Source: Zobellia amurskyensis
Lineage (GTDB): Bacteria; Bacteroidota; Bacteroidia; Flavobacteriales; Flavobacteriaceae
DNA: 55,522 nucleotides
Assembly (NCBI RefSeq): GCF_009725985.1
Contig: NZ_RCNR01000029.1
Location: forward strand, 1 to 55,522
Direction of reading: 5' to 3'
Shown: piece by piece, positions 16,818-44,703 of the stretch
Layout: each line of letters starts with the position of its first letter
How positions within the stretch are numbered: position 1 is the first letter of the stretch
Made by a program: the position numbers and the translations under genes
The notes under the pieces: model-generated
Told to the model about the DNA's origin: nothing
What the model saw: the letters and a program-made list of their open reading frames with translations, nothing else
The model's database searches: none

Positions 16818-16839
16818 TGGTATAGTTTTTTAGGTGATG

Positions 16840-28985: not shown

Positions 28986-29009
28986 ACCGTTGTTCTTGAA
29001 TACGTTAAT

Positions 29010-29162
29010 CTTAGTAGCGGGGACTGGACTCGAACCAACGACCTTCGGGTTATGAGCTCTCTGTTTCAATTTTTGTCGACAGTTTTATTGGGCTCAACCG
29101 CTATGAAATTATAAAATCGTATGCAAAAACGTATGCAGTTTTAGTTTTCTGATTATTAATAA
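29010..29162. repeat. Left copy of 153-base direct repeat (att-like, from tRNA-fMet 3' half)
   Basis: These 153 bases recur at 44192-44344 with a single mismatch (29038 A versus 44220 G). The first part is the reverse complement of a tRNA 3' half; the rest is a non-tRNA arm that contains CGTATGCA twice (29118-29125 and 29130-29137), spaced like integrase arm sites. Weaker similarity continues to about 29188. The pair flanks a self-contained fructan locus, which is what tandem integration at a tRNA gene produces. Confidence 0.85.
29015..29057 (-). pseudogene. Fragment of initiator tRNA-fMet(CAT), 3' half only
   Basis: Read on the minus strand the fragment has the anticodon loop CTCATAA, the CCCGA 3' side of the anticodon stem typical of initiator tRNA, the T-arm with TTCGAGT, the acceptor strand CCCCGCT and discriminator A. 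The 5' half (acceptor, D-arm, GGG side of the anticodon stem) is missing and replaced by unrelated sequence, so it cannot make a tRNA. The break at the anticodon loop is a usual crossover point for tyrosine recombinases. Copy 1 has a T in the T-stem where copy 2 has C, weakening one pair. Confidence 0.75.
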
Positions 29163-29337
29163 TATTTTGAGCAATTTATATAAAAAAGGGGCGATAAAAT
29201 ACTTTTTGAAGTGAATATTTTGAACTGTTAATTGAGACTTCTTTAAAATATGCACAGAGAATAGAACACTACAATCTCATTTGTAAAAGGTAACTATCTC
29301 TAAATTTCCTTAAGTTTACCCAAAGCCAGCTTAGCAA

Positions 29338-30465
29338 ATGATTTTTAGAAAGTACGTTTTATCGGTATGTATTACTCTCGTGATTCTTTTATTTTCTGCT
29401 TGTGTGGAACAAACATCGGAAAACAAGATTCGTATTGGTTTTTCACAAGCGATGACCAACGACGATTGGCGTCGTTCAATGAATAATGCCATGTTGCTTC
29501 AGACTTCGTTACACCCCAATATTGAATTGACCATTCGTGATGGAAATTATGAAGTAGAAAAGCAGATAGAGCAAGTAGAAGGTCTTATTGCGGACAGTCT
29601 TGATATTATAATAGTGTCTCCCATACAATCTAAACCCATAACTCCTGTTGTTGAAAAAGCTTTAAATCTGGGTATACCTGTTTTGGTGGTAGACCGTAAA
29701 ACCGAGAATCAAAAATATACTGCTTATTTAGGTGCTGATAATATAGAGGTAGGCAGAAATGCCGCTAAAGAAATTATTGCATCCAATACCAAAGATTCCA
29801 TTAGAATTATAGAAATAAAAGGTCTATTAGGGTCCTCTCCCGCAGAAGAAAGAAGTATTGGTTTCCACCAGACAATAGACCAATACCCCATGACAAAAGC
29901 TGTTGCCAGTATAGAGGGTGATTGGGAAAAAGAATCTATTCAGCAAAAGTTTAAAACATTATTAGAAGAGAATCCTAATGTAGATTACGTTTTTGCACAT
30001 AATGACAGAATGGCCGTTGGGGCTTGGGAAGTAGCTAGAAACATGGGGCTTGAGCACCAAATAGATTTTATTGGAGTAGATGGGCTTTCAGGTCCCAATG
30101 GTGGAATACAGGCGGTAAAGGACAATATTTTAAAGGCTACCGTACTTTATCCCACGGGTGGTGATGAAGCCATAAAATTGGCGCTAAAAATTCTGAACAA
30201 AGAATTGGTGCCCAAGAACAATATTTTATCGACTACAATCATAAACGAGGTGAATGCCGATATTATGAAAAATCAGTTTGATAGAATAAATGAACAACAG
30301 AATAATATAGAACAACAACTATTCGCACTTGGTGATTTGGAGGACCGGTACTCTGCTCAAAGTAATTTACTAAAAATTGTAATGGCGCTTTTGGCTATAA
30401 TCTTAGCATTAGCGTTATATAGTATCTATTCGATTTTTGCAATTCGAAAAAAAATAGACAGTTAG
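29338..30465 (+). CDS. HTCS sensor part: periplasmic sugar-binding domain and membrane anchor (frame-broken)
   Basis: The 375-residue frame has a signal segment (LVILLFSAC), a type I periplasmic-binding-protein domain (residues 30-320; NKIRIGFSQAMTNDDWRRSM, IIIVSPIQSKPITPVVEKAL, VFAHNDRMAVGAWEVARNMG) and a membrane helix near 345-370. It then stops. The following bases in the -1 frame continue without a stop as NRQLELTNTKITVQRNQIEK into the histidine kinase at 30531. The break is at the A8 run 30447-30454. This layout matches the fructose-sensing HTCS BT1754 of Bacteroides, whose sensor is also a binding-protein fold, and the adjacent GH32, transporter and fructokinase genes fit fructose or fructan sensing. 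Whether the protein is made whole depends on slippage or on an assembly error. Confidence 0.85.
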   Translation: MIFRKYVLSVCITLVILLFSACVEQTSENKIRIGFSQAMTNDDWRRSMNNAMLLQTSLHPNIELTIRDGNYEVEKQIEQVEGLIADSLDIIIVSPIQSKPITPVVEKALNLGIPVLVVDRKTENQKYTAYLGADNIEVGRNAAKEIIASNTKDSIRIIEIKGLLGSSPAEERSIGFHQTIDQYPMTKAVASIEGDWEKESIQQKFKTLLEENPNVDYVFAHNDRMAVGAWEVARNMGLEHQIDFIGVDGLSGPNGGIQAVKDNILKATVLYPTGGDEAIKLALKILNKELVPKNNILSTTIINEVNADIMKNQFDRINEQQNNIEQQLFALGDLEDRYSAQSNLLKIVMALLAIILALALYSIYSIFAIRKKIDS

Positions 30466-30530
30466 AGCTTACCAATACTAAGATTACCGTACAACGGAAT
30501 CAAATAGAAAAAATAGCCAAAGAGGTAAAG

Positions 30531-32090
30531 TTGAGTAACGAAGCAAAATTCAATTTCTTCACAGGGCTGTCACATGAATTTAAGACACCTATTACTTTGA
30601 TAATTAGTGCTATGGAGTCACTTCACGAAATAGCTAAGGACAAGGGGGTGAAAATGCTGAATGAGGTAGAGTTAGTACACAATAACTCTAACCGATTACT
30701 TAGGCTTATAAATCAGCTTTTGGATTTCAGAAAAGTGGAAGATCGTAAATTTACGTTAAGGGCATCTAAAACTAATTTATTTGAGTTTTCTGAAAATATC
30801 ACAAACGATTTTAAGAGAGAAGCAAAAAAACGAAACATCAGTTTCAAATTAAGTTCGAACAATCTGGACTTGGAATTGTTCATAGACCGTAACCTGATGG
30901 ATAAGGTTTATTTTAATTTATTGTCCAATGCGTTTAAGTTTACGCCCGATAATGGAAAGATAGAGATTACCATTGAGGATGCTGAAAATAAGAACACTGT
31001 AGATATTTGCTTCAAAGATTCAGGTATAGGAATACCAGAAAAAGATATGGCAAAGGTATTTCAAGCTTTTTTTAAAGGGTCAAACAACCGAAAGAATAGC
31101 TCGGGAATCGGGTTACATTTAAGTAAGGAATTTGTGGAAATGCACAAAGGCTCTATTCAAGTTAAATCACTGCATGGGTCGGAATTTATCGTAACACTTT
31201 ATAAAGGGCAAGCTCATTTTGATGAAAATGAAATTATTACAGAACAGGATTTAATAGATACCAGTATCATTGATTTTACCTCTGAATACCTTATGGACGA
31301 TAATTACCTGATTCAGGCGCCCACGGATGAAACGGAGAAATATTCTATTTTGATTGTAGAAGATAACCGAGACCTTTCTGCATTTTTAAAGAATAAATTG
31401 CAATTGGAGTATGATGTTTATTTGTCAGATGGTATGGATGCCGTTGAAAAAGCTTTAGAAACCATTCCTGATATTATATTATGTGATGTAAACCTACCTG
31501 ATAAAAATGGATTTGAAATCTGTGAAATACTAAAAAAAGATTTACGTACTTCTCATATTCCAACAATAATATTAACTGCCTTGGGTGATCAAGAATCGTA
31601 TTTAAAAGGTTTGCAATCCGGAGCCGATTTGTATTTGACCAAGCCATTTAGTTACTCTATTTTAATTCAATCTATCAAGTCTCTACTATACAATAGAGAA
31701 AAGCTTAGGTTCTATTATACCAGTAACATCCATAAAATAGAGCAAATAGATTTATTTGGTAATATAGAGCAGCAGTTTATCAATGAAATGAATAGCCTTA
31801 TCAAGGACAATTTAGGAAACTCTGATTTTTCTGTAGAAAATTTGGCTGAAAATTTAAAGATTTCTAGAGTTCAGTTATATCGAAAGGTAAAAGCGATAAT
31901 GGGAATTAGCATCAGTGATTATATCAGTAAAATTCGCCTGGAAAAAGCAAAATCGATGCTAGAAAACAGCTCTTTGAGTATATCAGAAATAGCATATTCA
32001 ACAGGCTTTTCTTCCCCAAATTATTTCTCCACAGCTTTTAAGAACAGTTATGGGACTTCTCCGGGTACTTTTCGCAAGTCCATTTCGTAG
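30531..32090 (+). CDS. HTCS output part: histidine kinase, receiver and AraC-type DNA-binding domain (frame-broken)
   Basis: This frame carries HisKA (FFTGLSHEFKTPITLIISAME; phospho-His codon at 30573), an HATPase domain with SGIGIPEKDM and SSGIGLHLSKEF, a receiver domain with the phospho-acceptor in IILCDVNLPDKNG, and a C-terminal AraC helix-turn-helix (FSVENLAENLKISRVQLYRK, ISEIAYSTGFSSPNYFSTAF). The TTG at 30531 is only the first possible start; the frame is open upstream to the A8 run at 30447-30454 and joins the sensor frame there by -1. Alone, this part would be a soluble kinase without sensor. It is the only regulator of the fructan cluster and should activate it. Confidence 0.88.
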   Translation: MSNEAKFNFFTGLSHEFKTPITLIISAMESLHEIAKDKGVKMLNEVELVHNNSNRLLRLINQLLDFRKVEDRKFTLRASKTNLFEFSENITNDFKREAKKRNISFKLSSNNLDLELFIDRNLMDKVYFNLLSNAFKFTPDNGKIEITIEDAENKNTVDICFKDSGIGIPEKDMAKVFQAFFKGSNNRKNSSGIGLHLSKEFVEMHKGSIQVKSLHGSEFIVTLYKGQAHFDENEIITEQDLIDTSIIDFTSEYLMDDNYLIQAPTDETEKYSILIVEDNRDLSAFLKNKLQLEYDVYLSDGMDAVEKALETIPDIILCDVNLPDKNGFEICEILKKDLRTSHIPTIILTALGDQESYLKGLQSGADLYLTKPFSYSILIQSIKSLLYNREKLRFYYTSNIHKIEQIDLFGNIEQQFINEMNSLIKDNLGNSDFSVENLAENLKISRVQLYRKVKAIMGISISDYISKIRLEKAKSMLENSSLSISEIAYSTGFSSPNYFSTAFKNSYGTSPGTFRKSIS

Positions 32091-32329
32091 TGGTATGATA
32101 ATCAGACCATACTTTTACTTTCTTTAATGTAACAATTTTAAACTTCAAGTAACAAAAGTATAACTCCACCATTTTGGCTAATGTTAAAAACGAATCGTAA
32201 CTATTTGATTATAAGCTAAATAGCAATTACTTTGAATTTCTTAACGAAATCACAATAGATTGCAACATCAGTAAAATACATTACTATATTTTGAGAATAC
32301 TTTAGTCGTGACAATATATAATTACGATT

Positions 32330-33697
32330 ATGAGAAAAATATGGATTTGGTCTATTACGGCAGCACTGGCAGGTTTCCTGTTCGGGTTTGATACCGTAGT
32401 TATCTCAGGTGCTGATAAAAAACTTCAGGTCTTATGGGATTCTTCAGACGTGTTTCATGGTACAGTTGTAATGGCAATGGCATTATGGGGTACAGTTTTA
32501 GGTGCAATTTTGGGTGGGATTCCTACTAACAAGCTTGGCAGAAAGAAAACATTATTATGGATAGGTATACTTTATACTATATCCGCACTTGGTTCAGCAT
32601 TTGCCAATGACCCTATTACGTTTGCGGTCTTTAGATTTGTTGGAGGTCTGGGGGTTGGAGCTTCTACCATTGCTGCTCCGGCCTATATATCTGAAATAGC
32701 TCCGGCCAAGGACCGAGGAAAACTGGTAGGACTTTACCAGTTTAATATTGTATTCGGAATTCTGATAGCCTTCTTGTCTAATTATTTGTTAAGCGGTGTT
32801 GGGGAGAATGCTTGGCGTTGGATGATAGGGGTAGAAGCAATTCCGGCAATAATTTATACCCTGTTTGTATTAAGCGTTCCAAAAAGTCCCAGATGGTTAT
32901 TGACCAAAATGCGTGACGATGAGGCAAAAAAAGTATTACAGCTTATCAACCCAGACCAAGACCCTGAGGAATTGATGTTAGAATTAAAGACAGAAAGTGA
33001 GAGCACGGTTTCCGGCGAAAATATTTTTATTAAAAAATATAGGTTCCCTCTCATATTAGCTTTCTTAATTGCGTTGTTTAACCAGTTTTCTGGCATCAAT
33101 GCGTTCTTATATTATGCCCCAAGAATTTTTGAAGAAGCCGGCCTAGGAGAAAGCACAGCACTTTTAAGCAGTATAGGAATCGGAATTACCAACATGCTTT
33201 TTACTCTTTTGGGAGTCTTTCTCATAGACAGGCTTGGAAGAAAGCAACTGATGTATATCGGTTCGGTTGGGTATATAATTTCTTTATCATTAGTGGCTTG
33301 TGCTTTTTTCTTTAATTGGGAAGGCATGGCGGTCCCCATTTTCTTATTTCTTTTCATTGCCGCACATGCCATAGGACAGGGAACTGTAATCTGGGTATTT
33401 ATCTCTGAGATTTTCCCAAATCATTTAAGGGGTTCGGGCCAATCGTTTGGTAGCTCTATACATTGGGTTTTAGCGGCAATTATACCTTCTCTGGTCCCGG
33501 TACTGTTTAGTACTATCGGTGCCGGACCTGTATTTGCCTTTTTTGCTTTTATGATGTTCTTGCAGCTCTTGTTCGTAGTGTTTATGATGCCTGAGACCAA
33601 AGGAATTTCGTTAGAGGATCTTAGCAAAACCTTATCAAAAGGGAGGAAAAATACAACGGATGAAATGATTAGTCTAGATGAACAAAAGGCGAACTGA
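32330..33697 (+). CDS. MFS sugar porter, probable fructose/hexose transporter
   Basis: The 455-residue protein has 12 predicted membrane helices and sugar-porter motifs: LAGFLFGFDTVVISGA in helix 1, GRKKTL after helix 2, the PKSPRWLL and MPETKG variants, and IDRLGRKQLMYIG between halves. It imports hexoses across the inner membrane, probably by proton symport. It begins 239 bases after the regulator and heads the operon; GH32 follows 21 bases later. Fructose as the substrate is inferred from the neighbouring GH32 and fructokinase genes. Confidence 0.9.
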   Translation: MRKIWIWSITAALAGFLFGFDTVVISGADKKLQVLWDSSDVFHGTVVMAMALWGTVLGAILGGIPTNKLGRKKTLLWIGILYTISALGSAFANDPITFAVFRFVGGLGVGASTIAAPAYISEIAPAKDRGKLVGLYQFNIVFGILIAFLSNYLLSGVGENAWRWMIGVEAIPAIIYTLFVLSVPKSPRWLLTKMRDDEAKKVLQLINPDQDPEELMLELKTESESTVSGENIFIKKYRFPLILAFLIALFNQFSGINAFLYYAPRIFEEAGLGESTALLSSIGIGITNMLFTLLGVFLIDRLGRKQLMYIGSVGYIISLSLVACAFFFNWEGMAVPIFLFLFIAAHAIGQGTVIWVFISEIFPNHLRGSGQSFGSSIHWVLAAIIPSLVPVLFSTIGAGPVFAFFAFMMFLQLLFVVFMMPETKGISLEDLSKTLSKGRKNTTDEMISLDEQKAN

Positions 33698-33718
33698 GGT
33701 AATCTAAAAGAAAAATAA

Positions 33719-35332
33719 ATGAAAAATAAAATTTACAATTTCGTGATGATACTAGGGATTTTCGCAGCACTGTTTTCGTGTAAAGACATAGCGAATAAAA
33801 AAGATGGTCAGGTTCAAAAGATGCAGGATACTGTTGCTTTATCCAATGAAGACCTATATCGCCCCAATTTTCATTTTTCTCCTAAAAAAGGATGGATGAA
33901 CGACCCCAATGGCATGTTCTATTATAATGGCTATTACCATCTCTATTTTCAACACTATCCAGATGGGAACACCTGGGGACCTATGCATTGGGGTCACGCC
34001 ATAAGTACCGATATGATTAGCTGGAAAGAGCAGCCTATTGCCCTTTATCCTGATGAGCTGGGTTATATATTTTCGGGAAGCGCAGTGGTAGATGTAGATA
34101 ATACTTCCGGTTTTTCAGAGGATAGTAAAACCCCGGTAGTGGCCATGTTTACTTACCACGACATGGAAGCTGAAAAGGCGGGGAAAACTATTGATGAAAC
34201 TCAGGCAATAGCCTATTCGCTGAACGAAGGTCTAACTTATACGAAATTCAAGGGAAACCCGGTTATTGCAAATCCCAACATACCGGACTTTAGAGATCCA
34301 AAAGTAAATTGGGACGAAGATCGAAAGCAGTGGACTATGGTCTTGGCGGCAGGACAGGAAATTATGTTCTATGCCTCCAAAGATTTAAAGCAATGGGAGT
34401 TGCTGTCCACATTTGGAGAAGGTATAGGAAACCATAACGGCGTTTGGGAATGTCCTGATTTTTTTCATCTTCCAGTTAAAGGAACAGATGAAACCAAGTG
34501 GGTATTGCTAGTGAGCATAAACCCTGGTGGTCCTAACAGCGGTTCCGCTACACAGTATTTTGTAGGAGATTTTGATGGAAAGACTTTCAAAATAGATGAA
34601 ACTTTTCAAAAGGAGCTTGCCAAGGAACATAGTTTTTGGGTAGATCATGGCCGCGATAATTATGCAGGAGTTACCTGGTCCAATGTTACTACGGCAGACG
34701 GAGGTAAACTTTTTATCGGTTGGATGTCAAATTGGCTATATGCCAATGAAGTGCCTACTGAAAAATGGAGAAGTGCCAATACAGTAGCAAGAGAATTGGG
34801 CCTTATTAAAGGAACTAACACCTACAGGTTGGTTTCCAAACCGGTTAAGGAGCTAAAGAACTACCGTGCAAAAAAAGTAGCGGATAGAGCTATTCCAATA
34901 CGCGGAAAAGCGATTTTGACTACTACAGAAACCATTAGTCTATCTAAAACTGAAATTAATTTTTCTATTTCGGAACTGGTTCAGGCGAAGTACACTTTTT
35001 CCCTCTCTAACAAACAAGGAGATAGTTTAACATTTGGGTACGACGCTAAAATCAACAAATATTTTATAAACCGGGATAATTCGGGAAAAACCGATTTCTC
35101 TCCAAAATTTTCAGACAGGCTCTCAACGGCCCCGCGAACGGCCCGTACAAAGGAGTGGACAGGAAAAATCCTTTTGGATAAAACGTCCATTGAACTTTTT
35201 TACGATGATGGGCAAACGGTAATGTCCGAAATATTCTTTCCCCACGCACCTTTTGAAACCTTATCGATAACCTCAGACCAAGACAACTTTACTCTCGACG
35301 CTTTGGAAATACATGAATTAAAATTTAACTAA
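33719..35332 (+). CDS. GH32 fructan beta-fructosidase / levanase-type lipoprotein
   Basis: The 537-residue protein has a lipoprotein signal (GIFAALFSCKD) and the GH32 five-blade propeller with all three catalytic motifs: W-M-N-D-P-N-G at residues 59-65 (Asp62 nucleophile), FRDPKV near 192 (transition-state Asp), and W-E-C-P-D with Glu244 as acid/base. A C-terminal beta-sandwich (about 390-537) follows. It cleaves beta-fructosidic bonds; exo-acting levanase, inulinase and sucrose hydrolase are all possible. Surface or periplasmic location follows from the lipobox. It lies 12 bases before susC in a tight operon. Confidence 0.93.
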   Translation: MKNKIYNFVMILGIFAALFSCKDIANKKDGQVQKMQDTVALSNEDLYRPNFHFSPKKGWMNDPNGMFYYNGYYHLYFQHYPDGNTWGPMHWGHAISTDMISWKEQPIALYPDELGYIFSGSAVVDVDNTSGFSEDSKTPVVAMFTYHDMEAEKAGKTIDETQAIAYSLNEGLTYTKFKGNPVIANPNIPDFRDPKVNWDEDRKQWTMVLAAGQEIMFYASKDLKQWELLSTFGEGIGNHNGVWECPDFFHLPVKGTDETKWVLLVSINPGGPNSGSATQYFVGDFDGKTFKIDETFQKELAKEHSFWVDHGRDNYAGVTWSNVTTADGGKLFIGWMSNWLYANEVPTEKWRSANTVARELGLIKGTNTYRLVSKPVKELKNYRAKKVADRAIPIRGKAILTTTETISLSKTEINFSISELVQAKYTFSLSNKQGDSLTFGYDAKINKYFINRDNSGKTDFSPKFSDRLSTAPRTARTKEWTGKILLDKTSIELFYDDGQTVMSEIFFPHAPFETLSITSDQDNFTLDALEIHELKFN

Positions 35333-35344
35333 AACTCAACTATT

Positions 35345-38300
35345 ATGAAACTAAAACTTTTATTCTTACTACTAACTCTTGCTCCTGTTGGCCTTTTGGC
35401 CCAGGACCGGATAACAGGTACGGTTACGTCCGCCGATGATGGACTGCCCTTGCCCGGGGCGTCCGTAATCGTAAACGGTACAACCATTGGTACAACTACA
35501 GATTTTGACGGTATTTATACTTTAGAAGAGGTTCCTAGCGATGCCACTTTGGTATTTAGCTATATAGGTTTCTTAAAGGCCGAAATTCCCGTTAACGGCC
35601 AGTCTACAATTAATTTGGCCATGCAGGCAGACGCCCAACAGCTAGACGAGGTAATTCTTACCGGTTATGCCACGGAAAGAAAGGCAGACTTGACCGGTGC
35701 GGTTACCGTAGTGGATTTAGGACCGGTAGAAGGCCAAAGTATGAGCTCGGGTAGTGCGGTGCAATCACTTCAAGGGCGTGTGCCGGGTCTTTTTATAGAA
35801 AAATCGGGAGACCCAACAGGCAATGGCAACCGTATTCTTATTAGAGGGGTTACCACACTGGGAAATAACGATCCATTGTATGTTATAGATGGGGTGCCTA
35901 CTGTCCGTCAAGAGGTGTTTTCAAGTTTAAATCCTAGTACTATTGAGTCCGTTCAAGTATTAAAAGATGCCTCGGCGTCATCAATATATGGTGCACGTGC
36001 GGGCAACGGGGTAATCATTGTTACTACTAAGAATAGGGCCAAAACAGCAGATGGGGAGAAGTTAAGTATTTCAATGAATTCAAATATATCAGTGTTGTCC
36101 GAAAAAAAACAGCGTTATGATATGTTGAACGCCCAACAACGAGGTGAGGCCTTATGGAGGGCTTCGGTCAATGATGGTGCAGATCCAAACGGGGGTTACG
36201 GGGAAATTTATAATTTTGATTGGAACGGAGATTTTGACAATCCTGTTTTGAATGGGGTTACAATTCAGCCCTTTGTAGGGGGCGACCCTAATGTGCCCGC
36301 GGGTGATACCGATTGGCAAGATCAAACCTATAAGACAGGTTATTTATATAATAATGATTTCAGCATTTCAGGTGGAAATGATAAGTCCTTTCATTTATTA
36401 AATATTGGGTACTTAAAGAATACAGGGGTATTAAAGTATACCAACTATGAAAGGTACTCTGCAAAGTTGAACTCCAATTTTAACTTTTTCAATAACAAAC
36501 TTAGGGTTGGTGTAAATACTCAATTTTCTACTTCCGATGAAACTCTGGCTTCTTTAGATGTAGGTAGCGCGCCTACCCCTAGTTTGGCCATTACCTTGGC
36601 TCCAACTTTGCCACTTAGAGATTCAAATGGTGAGTTTGCCGGTCCTCTAGGAGCGGGTTATTCAGACAGAAACAATCCGGTGCTCATGCAGTATTTGAAC
36701 AGATGGGATAACACGGAACGTACTTCTATATTCGGTAATGTTTATGCAGAATTGGATCTTCTTAAGAACCTTACGTTCAGAACCAGTGTAGGATTGGATT
36801 ACAATGACTTCAAAAGAAAGGATATTGAGCCAACGGTAAGCAACGGTTTCATTACACGGGGCAACAATAGGTTAATTCTTGATACCAACAAATTCACCAG
36901 TGTGGTCTTTACCAATACGTTAAACTACAATTTGGAATTGGGAGACCACCGTTTTGGTTTCTTGGTAGGTACAGAGTCTGTGAAGAACGACTTTGACGAA
37001 GTGTATGCTTCGGCAGACGGCTTTGCGGTAGAATCAGAGAATTATTTTGTATTGGGAGCTGCAACGGGAGCAAGAACCTCTAACGGAAGTTCAAGTGGCA
37101 GTCGTTTATTATCTCAGTTCGGTAAGTTAAATTACTCTTATGGGGATAGGTACTTGGCCTCGGTTACGGTACGTCGTGATGGTTCTTCCAGATTTGGACC
37201 GGACAACAGATACGGTATTTTTCCTGCATTTACCCTTGGTTGGAGAATTAGCCAAGAAGAATTCCTAAAGGATAACGATCTTATCAGCAATTTAAAGTTA
37301 AGGGCAGGTTATGGTGAAGTGGGTAACCAAAATATAGGTGATTTGGCCCGCTTTGGTATATATGAAGCGCGTTATGGAGACAATCAGTTCTCTGCTACAG
37401 GAGATACTTTTTTCTTTAATACGTTTTATAACGTAGGTACTGCTTATGACCTAAACGGAAATAATGGCGGAACACTTCCTTCAGGGTTTGTGTCTACTCA
37501 GGCGGCCAATCCCGCACTAAAGTGGGAAACCACCAAGGAAATTAATGTAGGTTTGGATTTTGGACTCTTTAAAAATGCCGTAGTAGGTTCATTTGACTAC
37601 TTTACAAGAGAAACTACCGATATTTTAACTACACCGCCTATTGCTTCTGTTATAGGTGAAGGACAACAGCGTGTGCTTAACGGTGCTTCTACGGAAACCA
37701 AAGGTTGGGAACTTTCCCTAGCTTACGCTAAGGCTTACGATAGTGGTCTTTCATTTGGAATCTCTACCAATTTCGGAGCGTTCAAGGATGAAATTACCGC
37801 TTTACCGGAAGAAGTTAGGGCCGCTTTCCCAGGTACGGCAGAGAATTCCATAGTAGGCCAATCCCAATTCTCGATTTTTGGTTACAAAACAGATGGATTA
37901 TTTCAAAGTCAAGCAGATGTTGATAGTTCTCCAACCCAGGTTGGTGCGCGCCCAGGAGGGTTAAAGTTTCAAGACTTAAATGGAGATGGAACTATTGATA
38001 GTGACGATAGGGATTTTATTGGGAATACCCTACCGGATTTAGAATATGGTGTACGTCTTGATGTTGGATACAAGAATTTTGATTTCTCTGTGTTTGGTTC
38101 AGGTGTGGCCGGAAGGATTGGTCAAGACCCCTATATTTTATGGAACAACTTTGTTCAAGGTCGTGAAAATGCCGGTCTTGGCGTATTGAACTCTTGGACA
38201 CCAACAAATACCGATACGGATATTCCTTCCTCTTCATTGGCTTTTAACGATTTGAGAACATCCGATTATTTATTTAGAAATAACTCTTATTTCAAAATCA

Positions 38301-38503
38301 GGAATTTACAGATTGGTTATTCTCTGCCCGAGGATATTATTGAAAAATGGGGAGGTATGACCAAGTTAAGAATCTATTTTCAAGGTGAGAACCTAGCTTG
38401 GTTCACACCTAACGATTATATCGGGTCAGACCCTGAACGTACCGATGTGAACAGGATTCCTGTGCCAACGGTATTGTCTTTGGGACTTAACGTAAATTTT
38501 TAA
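35345..38503 (+). CDS. SusC-family TonB-dependent transporter of the fructan locus
   Basis: The 1052-residue protein has a signal peptide (ending GLLAQ), a carboxypeptidase-like domain (GTVTSADDGLPLPGASVIVNG), a plug (RKADLTGAVTVVDLG, LYVIDGVPTV), VLKDASASSIYGARAGNGVII and a beta-barrel ending VLSLGLNVNF. It would import fructo-oligosaccharides. susD begins 12 bases after its stop. The A8 tract 36102-36109 lies in frame and does no harm. Confidence 0.95.
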   Translation: MKLKLLFLLLTLAPVGLLAQDRITGTVTSADDGLPLPGASVIVNGTTIGTTTDFDGIYTLEEVPSDATLVFSYIGFLKAEIPVNGQSTINLAMQADAQQLDEVILTGYATERKADLTGAVTVVDLGPVEGQSMSSGSAVQSLQGRVPGLFIEKSGDPTGNGNRILIRGVTTLGNNDPLYVIDGVPTVRQEVFSSLNPSTIESVQVLKDASASSIYGARAGNGVIIVTTKNRAKTADGEKLSISMNSNISVLSEKKQRYDMLNAQQRGEALWRASVNDGADPNGGYGEIYNFDWNGDFDNPVLNGVTIQPFVGGDPNVPAGDTDWQDQTYKTGYLYNNDFSISGGNDKSFHLLNIGYLKNTGVLKYTNYERYSAKLNSNFNFFNNKLRVGVNTQFSTSDETLASLDVGSAPTPSLAITLAPTLPLRDSNGEFAGPLGAGYSDRNNPVLMQYLNRWDNTERTSIFGNVYAELDLLKNLTFRTSVGLDYNDFKRKDIEPTVSNGFITRGNNRLILDTNKFTSVVFTNTLNYNLELGDHRFGFLVGTESVKNDFDEVYASADGFAVESENYFVLGAATGARTSNGSSSGSRLLSQFGKLNYSYGDRYLASVTVRRDGSSRFGPDNRYGIFPAFTLGWRISQEEFLKDNDLISNLKLRAGYGEVGNQNIGDLARFGIYEARYGDNQFSATGDTFFFNTFYNVGTAYDLNGNNGGTLPSGFVSTQAANPALKWETTKEINVGLDFGLFKNAVVGSFDYFTRETTDILTTPPIASVIGEGQQRVLNGASTETKGWELSLAYAKAYDSGLSFGISTNFGAFKDEITALPEEVRAAFPGTAENSIVGQSQFSIFGYKTDGLFQSQADVDSSPTQVGARPGGLKFQDLNGDGTIDSDDRDFIGNTLPDLEYGVRLDVGYKNFDFSVFGSGVAGRIGQDPYILWNNFVQGRENAGLGVLNSWTPTNTDTDIPSSSLAFNDLRTSDYLFRNNSYFKIRNLQIGYSLPEDIIEKWGGMTKLRIYFQGENLAWFTPNDYIGSDPERTDVNRIPVPTVLSLGLNVNF

Positions 38504-38515
38504 AAAATTGAAATC

Positions 38516-40261
38516 ATGAAACATAAAAATATATATTTATTAGGAATGTTGGTTTCATTACTCTTTGTCTCTTGTTCGGATGACTTTTTAGAGTATGAAC
38601 CAGAAGGAGTATTGTCTAACGAAAACGTAGCAACTGCAGAAAATGCAGAGTCTTTGGTAGTGGCCGCATACGCGGGAATAGCCAATGATGACATGGTAGG
38701 TCCGCTTACCCAGATGTGGGTATACGGTAGTGTACGTTCTGATGATGCCTATAAAGGAGGAGGCGGTCGTGGCGATGTTGATATTGTTGACAAATATGAA
38801 CAGTACAACCTTACCCAAGCAGATAACGGTACCGATTGGATGGGACCAAGAACTTGGACCAACTATTATGGGGCTATTTCTAGGGCTAACTTTGCCTTAT
38901 CTGTTATTAATGAAATTCCAGATGCCGATTATGCCGATAAAACTATACGTCAGGCCGAACTTCGGTTTTTACGGGCGCATTCACATTTTATCCTAAAGCA
39001 GCTTTTCAAAAAAATTCCATATATCACAGAGGAATTGACACCAGAGGAAAAAGGCCAAGTTTCAAACGATTTGCCCAACAATGAACTTTGGGATAAAATT
39101 GCAGAGGATTTCCTTTTCGCCTATAACAACCTTCCAGAGTCACAAGACCAAGTGGGTAGGGCAGATAAGAATGGAGCTGCGGCGTATTTGGCAAAACTAC
39201 GTTTATACCAGGCCTATGAACAAGATGAGAGTCATGCTGTAGTAAATATCAATACGGCTCTCTTAGAGGAAGTTGTGGGCTATGCCGATGATATTAGTGC
39301 TAGCTTGGAGCCTGATTATGGTAATAATTTTTTAGATGGTTTTGACAATGGCCCGGAATCAATATGGGCTGCGCAATTCTCTATAAATGATGGTACAATT
39401 GTAAGTAGGGTAAGTTTTGTAACCGGACTGAATTCTCCGCACGGAACAGGACTCTATGGCTGTTGCGGTTTTCATTTGGCTAGCCAAAACATGGTAAACG
39501 CTTTTAAAACAGATGCATCGGGACTTCCACTATTGGACACCTTTAATGATGATGATATCTTCAATACGGTTGAAGATGATGGTACTTCTGTACCTAGTGC
39601 AGGTCTAACAATAGACCCAAGATTGGATCATACCGTAGGTATACCGGGAAGACCTTTTAAATACAGAAATACGGTAAACGAAACGGGCGATATGGTATAC
39701 AATTTTAGTTGGGCGAGAGACCCCGGTGTGTACGGATATTTTGGTAACATGAAAGAGCAACAAGCTCCGGATTGTTCATGCTATGTAAAAGAGGGACCGT
39801 TCGTAGGAACTTCAAAAAATGTAGATTTTATACGTTATGCAGATGTACTGTTGTTCAAGGCCGAAGCTTTGATACAGTTGGATAGATGGGATGAAGCCTT
39901 ACCTATAATAAATCAAGTTAGGACCCGTGCGGCATCAAGTACGGCAAGACCTGTGGAAGCCGGGGCAACGGATATCTATAATGTAGGTACGTATGATGCT
40001 TTTCCAAGTAAAGAATTTGCCTTGAAAGCCTTAAAGTTTGAAAGACGATTGGAATTTGGAATGGAAGGTCCAAGATTTTTTGATCTCGTACGATGGGGAG
40101 AAGCTGCCGAAGTTTTAAATGCCTATTTAGCAGAGGAAAGAACCAAGAGGGATTTCTTGGCTAATGCGGAGTTTACTGCAGGTAGGGATGAATATTATCC
40201 TATACCTCAACGTGAAATAGATTTTACGGGTGGGGTATACGTACAAAATCCTGGATATTAA
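38516..40261 (+). CDS. SusD-family glycan-binding lipoprotein of the fructan locus
   Basis: The 581-residue protein has a lipoprotein signal (LLFVSCSDDFLE) and SusD landmarks: AELRFLRAHSHFILKQLFKK, FIRYADVLLFKAEALIQLDR, RRLEFGMEGPRFFDLVRWG and the terminal YYPIPQREIDFTGG. It is the surface partner of the preceding SusC and binds the fructan or its oligomers. It is longer than the SusD of the rhamnose locus, with a Cys-rich surface loop (GLYGCCGFHLA and DCSCYVKEG) that could hold a disulfide. Confidence 0.94.
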   Translation: MKHKNIYLLGMLVSLLFVSCSDDFLEYEPEGVLSNENVATAENAESLVVAAYAGIANDDMVGPLTQMWVYGSVRSDDAYKGGGGRGDVDIVDKYEQYNLTQADNGTDWMGPRTWTNYYGAISRANFALSVINEIPDADYADKTIRQAELRFLRAHSHFILKQLFKKIPYITEELTPEEKGQVSNDLPNNELWDKIAEDFLFAYNNLPESQDQVGRADKNGAAAYLAKLRLYQAYEQDESHAVVNINTALLEEVVGYADDISASLEPDYGNNFLDGFDNGPESIWAAQFSINDGTIVSRVSFVTGLNSPHGTGLYGCCGFHLASQNMVNAFKTDASGLPLLDTFNDDDIFNTVEDDGTSVPSAGLTIDPRLDHTVGIPGRPFKYRNTVNETGDMVYNFSWARDPGVYGYFGNMKEQQAPDCSCYVKEGPFVGTSKNVDFIRYADVLLFKAEALIQLDRWDEALPIINQVRTRAASSTARPVEAGATDIYNVGTYDAFPSKEFALKALKFERRLEFGMEGPRFFDLVRWGEAAEVLNAYLAEERTKRDFLANAEFTAGRDEYYPIPQREIDFTGGVYVQNPGY

Positions 40262-40345
40262 TAGTATAAGAAAGAATAGAGTTGTTTGAGTTAGTTGAAA
40301 AGGCATGGGAATTCGTTCCTGTGCTTTTTTTAATATAGATTAAAA

Positions 40346-41236
40346 ATGGAAAAGGAAATAAATGCAGTTTGTTATGGAGAAGTTTTATTCGACAATTTTC
40401 CAAAACATTCAAAAATAGGTGGGGCACCTTTAAATGTGTCACTAAGGCTTCAATCCTATGGTATTAACGTAGCGGTAATCAGTAGTGTTGGTAAAGATGG
40501 TAATGGTAAAAAAATTATTAGCTACCTCAAAAAGTCTGGGGTCAATACTAAAAACATAACGGTTCAAGAGGAGTACCAGACCGGTTGTGTTAATGTAGTA
40601 TTAAATGAGAAAGGTATAGCATCCTATGATATTGCTTATCCGGTAGCATGGGATAAAATTGTTCATAAAGAACCCCAAGAAGTAGTGGTGGCCAATAGCG
40701 ATTTTTTTGTTTTTGGTAGTTTAGTTTGTAGAGATGGCTTGTCAAGAAGCACACTTTTTGAACTATTAAAATTTGCTCCCTATAAAGTTTTTGATGTTAA
40801 TCTTAGGATCCCGTATTATACGCAAGAATTGTTGCAAGATTTAATGTTGGCATCGGATTTTATAAAGTTCAATGATGATGAACTTTTTGAAATAGCCCTT
40901 ACGATGGGGTCTAAGTTCAATTCATTAGAGCAGACCATAGAGTTTATAGCCAAAGAAACAAATACAGATACCATTTGTGTTACCAAAGGAGCTTATGGTG
41001 CTGTTTTATATATTTCCGGTACGTTTTACTACAATAGTGGTTATCGTATTAAGGTGCTTGATACGGTAGGTTCTGGCGATTCGTTCTTGGCATCTGTTCT
41101 CTATAAACTCTTTAATAATGAGAATCCTCAAAACGCCATAAATTTTGGTTGTGCCGTAGGAGCAATGGTCGCAAATAGCGAAGGTGCTAATCCTATACTT
41201 ACTGATTTAAAAATCAAAAAGTTTATGAATCCATAA
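40346..41236 (+). CDS. PfkB-family carbohydrate kinase, probable fructokinase
   Basis: The 296-residue cytosolic protein has the PfkB fold: IGGAPLNVSLRLQSYG near the N-terminus (substrate-binding GG motif), VISSVGKDGNG, CVTKGAYGAVLY, and the C-terminal signature DTVGSGDSFLAS with Asp245 as catalytic base. The family phosphorylates sugars at a primary hydroxyl; with GH32 and a hexose porter upstream, fructose to fructose-6-phosphate is the natural reading. It begins 84 bases after susD and probably ends the operon, since the next gene is convergent. No ATP-site loss was seen. Confidence 0.9.
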   Translation: MEKEINAVCYGEVLFDNFPKHSKIGGAPLNVSLRLQSYGINVAVISSVGKDGNGKKIISYLKKSGVNTKNITVQEEYQTGCVNVVLNEKGIASYDIAYPVAWDKIVHKEPQEVVVANSDFFVFGSLVCRDGLSRSTLFELLKFAPYKVFDVNLRIPYYTQELLQDLMLASDFIKFNDDELFEIALTMGSKFNSLEQTIEFIAKETNTDTICVTKGAYGAVLYISGTFYYNSGYRIKVLDTVGSGDSFLASVLYKLFNNENPQNAINFGCAVGAMVANSEGANPILTDLKIKKFMNP

Positions 41237-41406
41237 CTGGCTTAAAGAACTAATAGCAAAATTTCCCGAAAAACGAAGTTAGCGGTATGGAACGAAGGCT
41301 TATTAGTTATTTGAGTTAGAGGTTATGACCGCTTAACGTGCGATGCATTTAAATTGAGTTTGGAAAACATAGTTTCTTTACAGTAATCCTTAGTAAAGAA
41401 ACTAAA

Positions 41407-42288
41407 TTAATTTTTGGCATCCACCAATTGCCATGACCTTACCCAATTGTACGTTGTGGTTCTGTCTTTTTTTGAACCTGTCATGCCGCCGTCATTAGGT
41501 ACCGGATTCCAATCGTAGGTTTCGACAACCATTCGTAAATACATTTCAATATCAAAATCAGCCGGGGGTGTTACTTTGGAATGCATTTTACCGTCCAAGA
41601 AAAATATAATTTCATCCTTGGATTTCCACCAAACACCGTAAACATGGAAATCTTCATAGGCTTTTCCACCTAACTCTCCTTTGCTTTTATTTGACCCTTT
41701 TTCATATTCACACCCTTCAGGAATATTTCTACTATGAGTATTGGAGTTCATGGTCTGATCAAAGTATTTCATCCAGTCGGCATCATTCGTTATTTGTCCA
41801 ACAGATTCCTGAATGTCCAATTCCGTTGTTCTTTTGTCACAGCCTGATCGGTCTTTACCTTCATTAATTAACCAAAATGTAGAGGACATAAAGGTTTTGT
41901 TCGCTTTCATTTCGCATTCGTAATAGCCGTAGGTCATGCCATTTCTAGAACCAACATAACCGCCGCCGTGGGTATAGGTTTTATTGTTTTTGACTATAGG
42001 TTCCGGTAACAAAGTTGTGGTTATTTGCAAACTTCCACCCTTTACGGAAATGTTCTCAGCAAGAAACAATCCCGGAGCACGGCCTATCCACCCCTGACCC
42101 GAAATCTGCCATTTCTTTTCATCTATCTTTTTTCCATCAAATTCATCGGACATGTTATCAATTAATTTCCACTCTTGCTGAGACTGTTTTGGGTCCTCTC
42201 CGGGCTTGAAATGTGGAGTTTCTTGAGCAAATGTTGTACTTGTAAATAGAAGGGTGATAGCTGCTAGTAATTGGTTGGATAGTTTCAT
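41407..42288 (-). CDS. GH16 endoglycanase of the agarase/porphyranase type, secreted
   Basis: The 293-residue protein has a signal peptide (ending TTFAQ) and the GH16 jelly-roll with catalytic motif E-L-D-I-Q-E at residues 156-161 (Glu156 nucleophile, Asp158, Glu161 acid/base). WIGRAPGLFLAENISV and KTFMSSTFWLINEG resemble marine agarase/porphyranase-like GH16 proteins, and the length fits a single-domain enzyme. It would cleave beta-1,4 or beta-1,3 galactan or glucan bonds; the exact substrate is unresolved. It faces the fructokinase gene convergently. A galactanase beside a fructan operon is unexpected and may be separate cargo of the island. Confidence 0.88.
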   Translation of the reverse strand: MKLSNQLLAAITLLFTSTTFAQETPHFKPGEDPKQSQQEWKLIDNMSDEFDGKKIDEKKWQISGQGWIGRAPGLFLAENISVKGGSLQITTTLLPEPIVKNNKTYTHGGGYVGSRNGMTYGYYECEMKANKTFMSSTFWLINEGKDRSGCDKRTTELDIQESVGQITNDADWMKYFDQTMNSNTHSRNIPEGCEYEKGSNKSKGELGGKAYEDFHVYGVWWKSKDEIIFFLDGKMHSKVTPPADFDIEMYLRMVVETYDWNPVPNDGGMTGSKKDRTTTYNWVRSWQLVDAKN

Positions 42289-42776
42289 TGTCGTATGAAT
42301 AGGATTATTTAATTATGATAATGTTTTGTTGAATATAAGGTTTGCTATAGTCTTTATGAAATATTCAAATAAGACCAAACCTTCGGGTTTTCTAAAGGAC
42401 ATATTGATTACTAATTATTGTACAGTACTTTATTGTTCCTTTTACCATGTCAGAAACGAAACTATTGATACATAATTACAATTTATAATTATCTGTTTTT
42501 TTTCGACTGCTTAGAACTCGTAGAACTGTAAGCGACACTGTAACTTTAACGGTTAAAATCTTTAAATTACCGTTATTATGGGAGACGTTATTTTGATAAA
42601 CCAAATACCTGTCTGCACATCGTAGAAGAATAATCTCCCAGCCGGATATATTAGGAGTTAATATCAATATTTACTAAGCACTTCTACCATGTATCCAAAA
42701 TTAGAGTTCCGTTTCTGGTAGGGCATAGAAAAAAAGCCCGTTGAAGAGGCTAATCTGAATCTGTTTTTTTGACCTA
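42289..42776. other. 488-base intergenic region, no convincing gene
   Basis: It should hold the GH16 promoter (leftward). A 63-codon minus-strand frame at 42476-42667 has poor protein character and I leave it out. No strong terminator is visible. Confidence 0.45.
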
Positions 42777-43388
42777 TCAACGGCCTGTGTCACAGTTACT
42801 TTTGTTAGCTACGGTAATTATTTCAAACTTATTTGGATGATAGTCCATTCCTATTCGTATTTCTTCAGTTTTCTCTTTCCCAATAAGTTTCTCAGCTAAG
42901 TATAGGCCCAAGTCTAATGAAGAAGCTACCGCTCCAGCAGTTATAATATTATCGTCATCAACAATTCTTGCTTGAGCAACTCTCTCGCAGTACTTTTCCA
43001 ATGATTTATATTCATTAAAGTTGGTCGTTGCCGTTTTGTTTATCAAGAATCCTGCTGCCCCAATTAATAAGCTACCTGTGCAAATAGAAACTATAAAATC
43101 AACATTTTCTCCGGTTCTCAACCAATCAATGAACTCTATATCGTATTGAAGTTTTCTTGTCCCATATCCACCGGGGACTACTATCATATCATAATCGGAT
43201 AAATCAGGCTTGATTTTATCGACAATAATTTCTAGTCCAAAACTATCTTTTATCGATTTTTTAGTAGCACACAAATCCCAATTTAAATTCTCCATAAACC
43301 CTTTGGTTTTTATATTTTTAATAGGGTCATAAAACCCTATTAAATCTAAAAGAGTTATTTCGTCAAATAATATATATGCAATCTTCAT
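42777..43388 (-). CDS. DJ-1/PfpI-family protein (class I glutamine-amidotransferase-like)
   Basis: The 203-residue cytosolic protein has the DJ-1/PfpI fold: KIAYILFDEITLLDLIGFYD, IVVPGGYGTRKL and the nucleophile elbow S-I-C-T-G with Cys103. Sequence features resemble the isonitrile-hydratase-like branch. Activities in the family include isonitrile hydration and glyoxalase-type chemistry; none can be assigned here. It lies 33 bases from the RibD-like gene on the same strand, so the two probably form a small operon. They have no evident tie to fructan use and look like extra island cargo. Confidence 0.88.
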   Translation of the reverse strand: MKIAYILFDEITLLDLIGFYDPIKNIKTKGFMENLNWDLCATKKSIKDSFGLEIIVDKIKPDLSDYDMIVVPGGYGTRKLQYDIEFIDWLRTGENVDFIVSICTGSLLIGAAGFLINKTATTNFNEYKSLEKYCERVAQARIVDDDNIITAGAVASSLDLGLYLAEKLIGKEKTEEIRIGMDYHPNKFEIITVANKSNCDTGR

Positions 43389-43421
43389 TTTGGAGCTTTA
43401 CATGTTGTGGTAAGCAGTTTT

Positions 43422-43967
43422 TTACTTTTTATATATCAAAACTGTGATTCCGCATTTATAAGCTTTTGCACTTTCCAATTTTAATTCAGTTTTATAATTA
43501 GCTTTCTTAAATATTGGCATTCCGTTCCCTAAAATCGAAGGATTTATAAAAAAATAATATTCGTCAATTAAATTTTCTCTTATTAGTGAAGAAACGAATT
43601 CGCCACCTCCATAGGCAATTATGTCATTTCCTGTTGAAGACTTTAATTTTTCTATTTTTTCGACTAAATGTCCTTTTTCCAAAAGGGTATTTTCCCATTC
43701 AGTATTTTCGAGCGTTTTTGTAAAAACTATTTTATTTGAGTTATTAATTTTTTCGGCACCTTCCAATTCTTTGTTGGATTTCCAATGTGGAATAAATCCT
43801 TCAGCAAGTTTTCGTCCTAATACAATGGTGTCAGTCGATTCAGTTATTTCTTTGACGAAGTTCTTTAATTTTTCGTCCCAATTCCAAATCATCCAGTCCA
43901 TTTCTCCGTTTGGACCAGAAATGAAACCGTCAATTGAGAGTTGAATTTGAAGTTTTAATTTTCTCAC
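43422..43967 (-). CDS. RibD C-terminal-like dihydrofolate-reductase-family protein
   Basis: The 181-residue protein matches small stand-alone RibD_C/DHFR-like reductases: RKLKLQIQLSIDGFISGPNG at the start, TIVLGRKLAEGFIPHW, IIAYGGGEFVSSLIRENLID and a beta-rich end. Such proteins bind NADPH; their substrates are mostly unknown. It is upstream of, and probably co-transcribed with, the DJ-1-like gene. It is the last gene before the right-hand tRNA-derived repeat. Confidence 0.88.
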   Translation of the reverse strand: MRKLKLQIQLSIDGFISGPNGEMDWMIWNWDEKLKNFVKEITESTDTIVLGRKLAEGFIPHWKSNKELEGAEKINNSNKIVFTKTLENTEWENTLLEKGHLVEKIEKLKSSTGNDIIAYGGGEFVSSLIRENLIDEYYFFINPSILGNGMPIFKKANYKTELKLESAKAYKCGITVLIYKK

Positions 43968-44158
43968 GATTTACTATTTTCGTTAATGTTGGAATTTGTT
44001 TTCACCTTTATTTTAGAGGTAATTTACTCAAATCTTGTATATCGCCAATGTTTGTAGGAAAATAAGAAAGTCTTAAACGTATAAAATGTCTTTACAAACG
44101 TTTAATAGGTGGAGTGTTTTTTTTCGCGGAGCGTAATAAAAAGAAATACAAGGCATAA

Positions 44159-44190
44159 AAAAAGGCTTCTGAGAAATCAGAAGCCTTTTT
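44159..44190. terminator. Perfect 14-bp hairpin terminator beside the tRNA-fMet fragment
   Basis: Arms at 44159-44172 and 44177-44190 pair perfectly around a GAAA tetraloop, with T-runs at both ends, so it works in either direction. Read on the minus strand it lies just 6 bases after the tRNA fragment's 3' end, the position of a tRNA-gene terminator. The left repeat (29010) lacks it. Confidence 0.8.
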
Positions 44191-44191
44191 A

Positions 44192-44344
44192 CTTAGTAGC
44201 GGGGACTGGACTCGAACCAGCGACCTTCGGGTTATGAGCTCTCTGTTTCAATTTTTGTCGACAGTTTTATTGGGCTCAACCGCTATGAAATTATAAAATC
44301 GTATGCAAAAACGTATGCAGTTTTAGTTTTCTGATTATTAATAA
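44192..44344. repeat. Right copy of the 153-base att-like direct repeat
   Basis: Identical to 29010-29162 except at 44220. It carries the tRNA-fMet 3' half and the same arm with CGTATGCA at 44300-44307 and 44312-44319. Diverged similarity continues to about 44370. The tRNA trailer hairpin to its left suggests this copy retains more of the original tRNA locus. Confidence 0.85.
44197..44239 (-). pseudogene. Second fragment of initiator tRNA-fMet(CAT), 3' half only
   Basis: Same 43-base fragment as at 29015-29057 but with C instead of T in the T-stem, giving the better-paired GCTGG/CCAGT stem. With the terminator hairpin beside it, it looks like the true 3' end of a tRNA-fMet gene cut at the anticodon loop. 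An intact gene restored by the element would be expected further right, outside the window. Confidence 0.75.
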
Positions 44345-44703
44345 ATTCTTAGGCCAATTTATATAAAAAAAGCAACAATCACATCATTTCTTAAAATCTA
44401 TGTTTTGGTGCTAATACAAACTTCCTTTCGGTGGTGGAAAGGGTATTTTAGCTTATATCACCTGTAGAATGAATTATATGACCCTACTTATAGGGCGCTT
44501 GAATTATACATTTGCTATTGAGTTAACCGAAATCGAAAAGATATCATTTTCGAAAAGCTATAAAGTATATGAATACCATAAATTTTGATCCAATTATCCC
44601 GCTACAATTGCTTATCAAAGAACTATTGACTTTGTGAAATCTTAAAATGATTTTAAAGAACAATTAATGAACAACAATACAATTATAAAACGCACTCTGT
44701 GAT

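Follow-up and report, generated by a model that had tools for sequence, protein, structure and literature searches.

The DNA studied here, called the window throughout, is the whole of contig NZ_RCNR01000029.1 of Zobellia amurskyensis (55,522 nucleotides, nt), in which a fructan locus lies between two near-identical repeats that each contain half of an initiator tRNA (tRNA-fMet) gene. The comparisons reported below indicate that the window probably cuts through a tandem series of tyrosine-integrase islands at tRNA-fMet, and that the fructan island, which extends from about 29058 to 44239, is one chimeric, integrase-less member of this series. This reading is carried by the tandem anatomy, by integrases found at the same site in relatives, by a scar common to several islands, by the patchy presence of the locus and by a recent exchange of its core between species. 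The window (contig C29) belongs to a genome of 5.14 Mb in 120 contigs, G000; the nine genomes G000 to G008 form our genus set and are presumably all Zobellia.

Two half-tRNA repeats enclose the fructan island

The repeats (29010–29162 and 44192–44344) are identical at 152 of 153 bases, the sole difference being an A at 29038 for a G at 44220, and their starts lie 15,182 bases apart, as the first-pass annotation of this DNA had reported. Extended rightward, where the similarity is weaker, the gap-free match covers 168 nt at 95% identity; on the left it goes barely past the tRNA 3′ end, and the two repeats have unrelated flanks on that outer, tRNA 3′ side. Each repeat consists of the 46-nt 3′ half of a tRNA-Met gene, stopping at the anticodon loop, joined to a conserved arm, a structure also recognized in the first-pass annotation. 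The halves are on the minus strand, at 29012–29057 and 44194–44239, and are identical to an intact gene on contig C9 of the same genome at 45 and 46 of 46 positions respectively. The left arm (29058–29188) carries the direct repeat CGTATGCAAAAACGTATGCA and is repeated on the right (44240–44370); the right arm already belongs to the next island, of which it forms the far end and which extends rightward. ARAGORN called no tRNA within the window, and Rfam gave no match at gathering cut-offs.

With the repeat as query, six places were found in G000: two in the window, two on C9, one on C3 and one on C28. The only intact tRNA among them is C9:35325–35398; it has a C1:U72 mismatch and a GGG/CCC anticodon stem, which are hallmarks of an initiator, and it was typed as such. 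The genome gave 38 tRNA matches (30 loci typed and one more typed separately), and CAT anticodons were found on C9, C40 and C28 among the loci typed. In most copies of the repeat the tRNA part is 45–46 nt long and stops at the anticodon loop or slightly beyond it. On C3 it reaches 50 nt; in G002 and G008 it is worn or reduced in length, and worn copies of the half with its arm are preserved there at 76% and at 80% over 108 nt respectively.

Stacked islands at tRNA-fMet in relatives

Tandem integration at tRNA-fMet, which the first-pass annotation had proposed, can be followed as a whole series in G007, and the tyrosine integrases that it suggested looking for elsewhere were found beside tRNA-fMet in relatives. 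Downstream of tRNA-fMet, G007 carries about 143 kb of tandem islands divided by tRNA halves (at 1171703, 1205968 and 1244017, with the intact tRNA at 1281300). By Pfam, island 1 (37.2 kb) carries the integrase int-A along with a TonB receptor, a sulfatase and enzymes that act in the metabolism of aromatic acids and CoA; island 2 (38.0 kb) carries the integrase int-B and a SusC/SusD pair; island 3 (34.2 kb), without integrase, carries SusC-type receptors and a sulfatase; and island 4 (about 32 kb) carries the fructan locus with a second SusC/SusD set. No tRNA half was found at the far end of island 4, and from about 143 kb onward the DNA is collinear with C9 of G000. In G001 there is one tRNA-fMet island of 40.8 kb with a third integrase, int-D; the fructan locus is inverted inside it and remains of int-B lie behind. 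The distance from tRNA half to tRNA is 20.7 kb in G003 and 28.3 kb in G005, and parts of the cargo of G007 island 3 recur in the G003 island (69–77%) and in G005, in the first 28 kb (82–90%) and again at 47–66 kb (75–78%). No tRNA half was found in the stretches read of G004 and G006. An intact tRNA stands at the near end of the array in G007, G001, G003 and on C9, and not in the window series.

The integrases belong to the Phage_integrase/SAM-like family of Pfam and have conserved R, RH, GH and Y motifs. With a profile built from four of them, 50 of the 299 family genomes gave a match at E ≤ 1e-60; the 30 highest-ranked loci, one per genome, were inspected. At 22 loci an intact CAT tRNA lies 53–110 nt ahead of the integrase match, and at the remaining eight the 3′ half of a CAT tRNA is present, from the anticodon loop onward; counted by tRNA type, the 30 loci divide into 22 at the initiator and 8 at a second CAT type. 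Together with the G007 stack, the presence of a CAT tRNA or its 3′ half at all 30 loci supports the interpretation as tandem tRNA-fMet islands. Two or three integrases of the family lie on one strand, 19–50 kb apart, in G000 (on C28) and in eight other genomes. In five cases (L160:16749–17522, L165:6910–7683, L162:14196–14942, L168:1244–1975 and L219:4698–5396) a gene of 233–259 amino acids comes directly after the integrase, and the products align over a conserved C-terminus; the three tried against Pfam and the three tried against NCBIfam gave no match.

Glycan cargo is no rule of this integrase family. In a SusD search of nine genomes, SusD genes lay, among the matches listed, between tandem integrases in two (G001, and G274 with two such matches) and near one integrase in G219; none lay between integrases, among the matches listed, in G035, G070, G143, G159, G204 and G284. 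The matches listed for G001 include two in a series at 4.21–4.30 Mb and three more in the tRNA-fMet island. That series (G001:C1:4210248–4299694) has three family integrases on one strand, 38–50 kb apart, with the two SusD matches between them.

Three other contigs of G000 also carry tRNA halves. On C9 a 31.5-kb island devoid of integrase (cargo SusC/SusD, three sulfatases and a glycoside hydrolase (GH) of family 28) comes behind the intact tRNA; beyond it lie a tRNA half, what remains of an int-A, and the backbone. The first-pass annotation suggested a search for an intact tRNA-fMet to the right of the fructan island; none is reached there, and the gene is on C9, where the island series runs into conserved backbone. 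Since C9 holds the native site, with conserved DNA on both sides, the window series stands elsewhere, displaced. The gene past the C9 series was tried as a backbone marker and rejected, since it gave weak matches only, in three of the eight other genus genomes. C3 carries the 50-nt tRNA-fMet half (L168:3339–3388) and int-A, and may be the other end of the window series, unjoined in the assembly. A GH20 gene (L168:3923–5623) begins about 540 nt after this half; C3 was rejected as a source of an empty site, because the homologue in G001 (G001:C1:2133057–2134754, 94% identical) stands at another tRNA, which by eye resembles tRNA-Ala. Finally, C28 holds a second tandem series (16110–36845) at another CAT tRNA (C28:36771–36845), with integrases at 16110–17558 and 35401–36717, a tRNA 3′ half and an arm with CGTGTTCAAAAACGTGTTCA.

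The fructan island has ends of two types

In agreement with the first-pass annotation, which saw no integrase inside the island, int-A, int-B and int-D gave no match in the window. The 148-nt repeat and arm of the window is present in G007 at 90%, where the arm terminates the integrase island beside the intact tRNA; 29010–29188 and 44118–44370 are 88% and 82% identical to G007 respectively, the former to the end of its int-A island. In G007 this arm (88–90%) closes an island that opens with int-A right behind the intact tRNA, and we therefore read the window arm as the distal attachment arm that int-A islands carry. Short repeats similar to CGTATGCAAAAACGTATGCA (CGTATGC and CGTATTC) are found at the start of the G007 int-A island, and the other integrases pair, by eye, with arms of their own, int-B with GTTTAC repeats and int-D with GTATAC-like repeats.

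The right end, at 44011–44191, is a tRNA-side end that we call type C, corresponding to an int-B end from which the integrase and its partner gene are missing, with a scar near 44106–44118; over 44011–44239 the identity to the C9 tRNA and the flank beside it is 90%. In the alignment, a 2.3-kb block of G007 island 2 (int-B and the partner gene) is absent from four islands, namely the window island, the C9 island and G007 islands 3 and 4, which have the scar in common and differ in cargo. The small genes behind the scarred ends are different in every island. With an int-A arm on the left and an int-B-derived end on the right, the island combines ends of two kinds of element and is chimeric, which does not support its being one mobile module with two like ends.

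Outside the left repeat, an int-A type flank lacking its integrase occupies 28971–29011 (28971–29057 is 95% identical to C3 and 93% to the G007 tRNA flank); such a flank normally sits between the integrase and the tRNA 3′ end. To this flank is fused the end of a DNA topoisomerase III gene (26664–28985, plus strand; Pfam, and topB in NCBIfam), which has orthologues at 84–88% in six of the eight other genus genomes, the homology stopping near the stop codon. These orthologues provide no clean empty site, since their downstream DNA is, over the extent inspected, unlike both the island and the right side of the window; it also differs among several of the six genomes. On the right, the sensor gene at 49713 was rejected as an island marker, as it gave 84–107 matches per genome, the best at 31%, and no close orthologue.

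Gene content and recent exchange of the fructan core

Pfam agrees with the functional set that the first-pass annotation saw between the repeats: sensor/regulator, porter, GH32, SusC, SusD, kinase, GH16 and two small enzymes. On the plus strand, a fructan sensor in two parts (29338–30465, 375 amino acids, periplasmic binding protein domain; 30531–32090, 519 amino acids, HisKA, HATPase, response regulator and AraC domains) is followed by a sugar porter of the MFS family (Sugar_tr, 32330–33697), a predicted GH32 fructan hydrolase with N and C domains (33719–35332), a SusC-like receptor (35345–38503), a SusD-like lipoprotein (38516–40261) and a PfkB-family kinase (40346–41236), probably a fructokinase, its best NCBIfam matches being under cut-offs. 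On the minus strand lie a GH16 (41407–42288), a DJ-1/PfpI family protein (42777–43388) and a RibD_C domain protein (43422–43967). With its GH32, SusC/SusD, split sensor, porter and kinase, the predicted content fits a fructan polysaccharide utilisation locus. Contrary to the first-pass annotation, the locus is not complete: the sensor, undivided in G001 and G007 (916–917 amino acids), is split here into two open reading frames (ORFs), and the window lacks a second SusC/SusD locus (Pfam) of 16.2 kb that G007 carries between the kinase and GH16 genes, at a seam placed at 41231–41282 by blastn breakpoints, and that G001 also has, at 84%.

A GH32 of the window type (at least 59% identical) is present in three of the nine genus genomes, a patchy distribution; distant GH32 (45–46%) occur in G000, G007 and G008, and 11 of 60 genomes searched have a GH32 match. 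In G001 and G007 the fructan locus sits among the islands of the native tRNA-fMet.

The backbone beside the tRNA is 86.1% identical between G000 and G007 (18.4 kb aligned in pieces above 300 nt), and the island is 76.4% identical to G007 over 29192–33640 and 95.2% over 33857–41234. Identity at fourfold sites is 58% in the backbone (1710 sites in the 11 ORF pairs past a length filter), and reaches 86% for GH32, 84% for SusC, 77% for SusD, 87% for the kinase, 80% for GH16 and 95% for PfpI; it is 33% for the porter and 30% for the second part of the sensor. Silent sites of the core at 77–87%, compared with 58% in the backbone, point to a recent exchange, and we conclude from these identities that the fructan core has passed between the G000 and G007 lineages recently. 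Sensor and porter have a history that differs from that of the core.

Two further features of the window were noted. The 91-nt stretch 42729–42819 is 75% identical to L005:2661–2750, each copy lying just after an unrelated small gene; it has GGCTAACAA-like ends and by eye resembles a cassette end. Left of the topoisomerase gene, 846–25369 is a rhamnose-glycan locus with two GH106, a GH78-like gene, RhaT, an isomerase, RhaM, a sulfatase and SusC/SusD, and with genes of DUF1501 and planctomycete-cytochrome type.

Discussion

The tandem series described above suggests the following mechanism. Tyrosine integrases would recombine within the initiator tRNA gene, in its anticodon loop; an integrating island would rebuild the tRNA with its own 3′ half, and the displaced half, joined to the distal arm of the island, would stay at the far end, so that the next island to arrive would stack in front. 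The fructan island would have lost its integrase, leaving an int-B tRNA-side end without integrase and partner gene and, at the far end, an int-A arm. If its ends can still recombine, as we suppose, the island might move by means of an integrase acting on them in trans or together with a functional neighbour, and RecA recombination of one repeat with the other might delete it. The order of these events is our reconstruction.

Several observations weigh against this interpretation. The sensor is split here and intact in G001 and G007, and the 16.2 kb of G007 are missing; the ends of the island are of two types; the fructan homology in G007 has its limit at 29192, just inside the arm, yet neither arm nor tRNA half is found there. 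The only intact tRNA-fMet found in G000 is that of C9, which has a complete series of its own, and the int-A of C3 has an in-frame stop. In Pseudozobellia thermophila (G018), which is outside the genus set, the GH32 (75%) is on a different contig from tRNA-fMet. No deleted or circular form was seen, and excision is not evidenced.

Some of these observations would also be expected of a dead, rearranged remnant, in which integrases brought islands long ago and homologous recombination or copying then produced the ends, the scar and the repeats, with no site-specific movement at present. The island without integrase, its chimeric ends, the split sensor, the short sequence shared at the topoisomerase-end junctions and the mosaic identity within the island (76% then 95%) all suit such a history. 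It is nevertheless unlikely, given the recent exchange of the core with G007, an arm pair differing at a single position of 153 and a right tRNA half that matches the intact gene throughout. A single self-mobile fructan element with its own attachment sites attL and attR would explain direct repeats enclosing a coherent cargo, but we consider it very improbable: no integrase is inside, the left end is of int-A type and the right one int-B derived, and the same cargo has different ends in G001 and G007. Still less is to be said for a piece of an integrative and conjugative element (ICE), integrative and mobilizable element (IME) or prophage. The topoisomerase III gene adjoins the island, and topB occurs on ICEs; moreover, a Leeuwenhoekiella phage record has a 37% identical integrase and opens on a 3′ half-tRNA of the second CAT type. 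However, no conjugation or phage structural families were found in the ORFs searched (29 of the 37 window ORFs of at least 90 amino acids, 44 of the G007 series and 10 of the C9 island, a subset of the island ORFs, several of the domain searches reporting only matches with E ≤ 1e-10), and with int-B as query 1 of 50,697 phage records and 2 of 72,556 plasmid records matched, at identities of 37% at most. Likewise, relaxase and conjugation genes are absent from the 29 window ORFs, the island to the right extending past the contig. An assembly artefact, in which a short-read misjoin would have created the pair of repeats or split C29 from C9, is suggested by the 120 contigs and the tRNA halves at several places, and has a negligible probability, as the unique outer flanks of the repeats recur at such ends in G007 and the shared tRNA stretches are of 46–57 nt.

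The tandem series of tyrosine-integrase islands thus remains our preferred reading, and it has wider implications. In marine Bacteroidota, gain and loss of whole glycan-use loci have so far mostly been inferred from patchy presence. Here a recombinase, an attachment site, its stacked products in several species and silent-site exchange coincide at one gene, which makes the route testable with defined attachment (att) sites and makes tRNA-fMet a place to inspect whenever a genome of the group is newly sequenced. The different stacks in related species point to one route by which these bacteria could swap diets, and the shared integrase-loss scar raises the question of integrase-less islands moved in trans. 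Going further, it is possible, although we lean against it, that Flavobacteriaceae possess an integrase family devoted to tRNA genes with a CAT anticodon, and that in this genus it runs a platform for catabolic-locus cassettes. Scarred islands without integrase would then spread in trans, neighbouring islands would trade ends and cargo, and glycan loci would be gained, swapped or lost at tRNA-fMet. Such a platform would handle whole glycan-use loci as an integron handles single genes.

Relation to known systems

A shallow literature search turned up no work on glycan loci carried by tRNA-Met islands of this genus; several known systems resemble parts of the series. In gut Bacteroidetes, 47 SusC/SusD loci on chromosomal mobile elements were counted (PMC6907783). 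The likeness lies in the carriage of SusC/SusD loci; the elements there are ICEs, IMEs and prophages, whereas here they are stacked tRNA islands, with transfer genes not found in the ORFs searched. Islands of Methylophilaceae start at tRNA genes, including tRNA-Met(cat), and carry cargo and a tyrosine recombinase (PMC10872708). Like these and the tycheposons, the integrase-bearing relatives, and not the window island, combine a tyrosine recombinase with a tRNA site; the bacteria and the cargo are others, and the likeness consists of recombinase and site. The Islander account counts 2083 islands with anticodon-loop crossover and knows of tandem arrays (PMC4383910). The displaced 3′ fragments at 29012–29057 and 44194–44239, with crossover at the anticodon loop, are of this kind, except that the window island has neither an integrase of its own nor an adjacent intact tRNA, both of which its relatives have.

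The closest parallel is with cis-mobilizable elements (CIMEs), islands that keep both att ends and have lost the integrase, and with the accretion arrays formed when elements stack at an existing att site (PMC5704250). The window island shows this end structure, without integrase and in tandem with others at one target gene. It departs from those CIMEs in its glycan-use cargo, in ends that derive from different integrase types and in a loss scar common to at least four islands; nor was an ICE parent or any transfer gene found in the ORFs searched, although related islands that bear integrases exist in G007 and G001. Without claiming descent from an ICE, we therefore regard the fructan island as CIME-like, part of an accretion array and a new variation on a kind already known.

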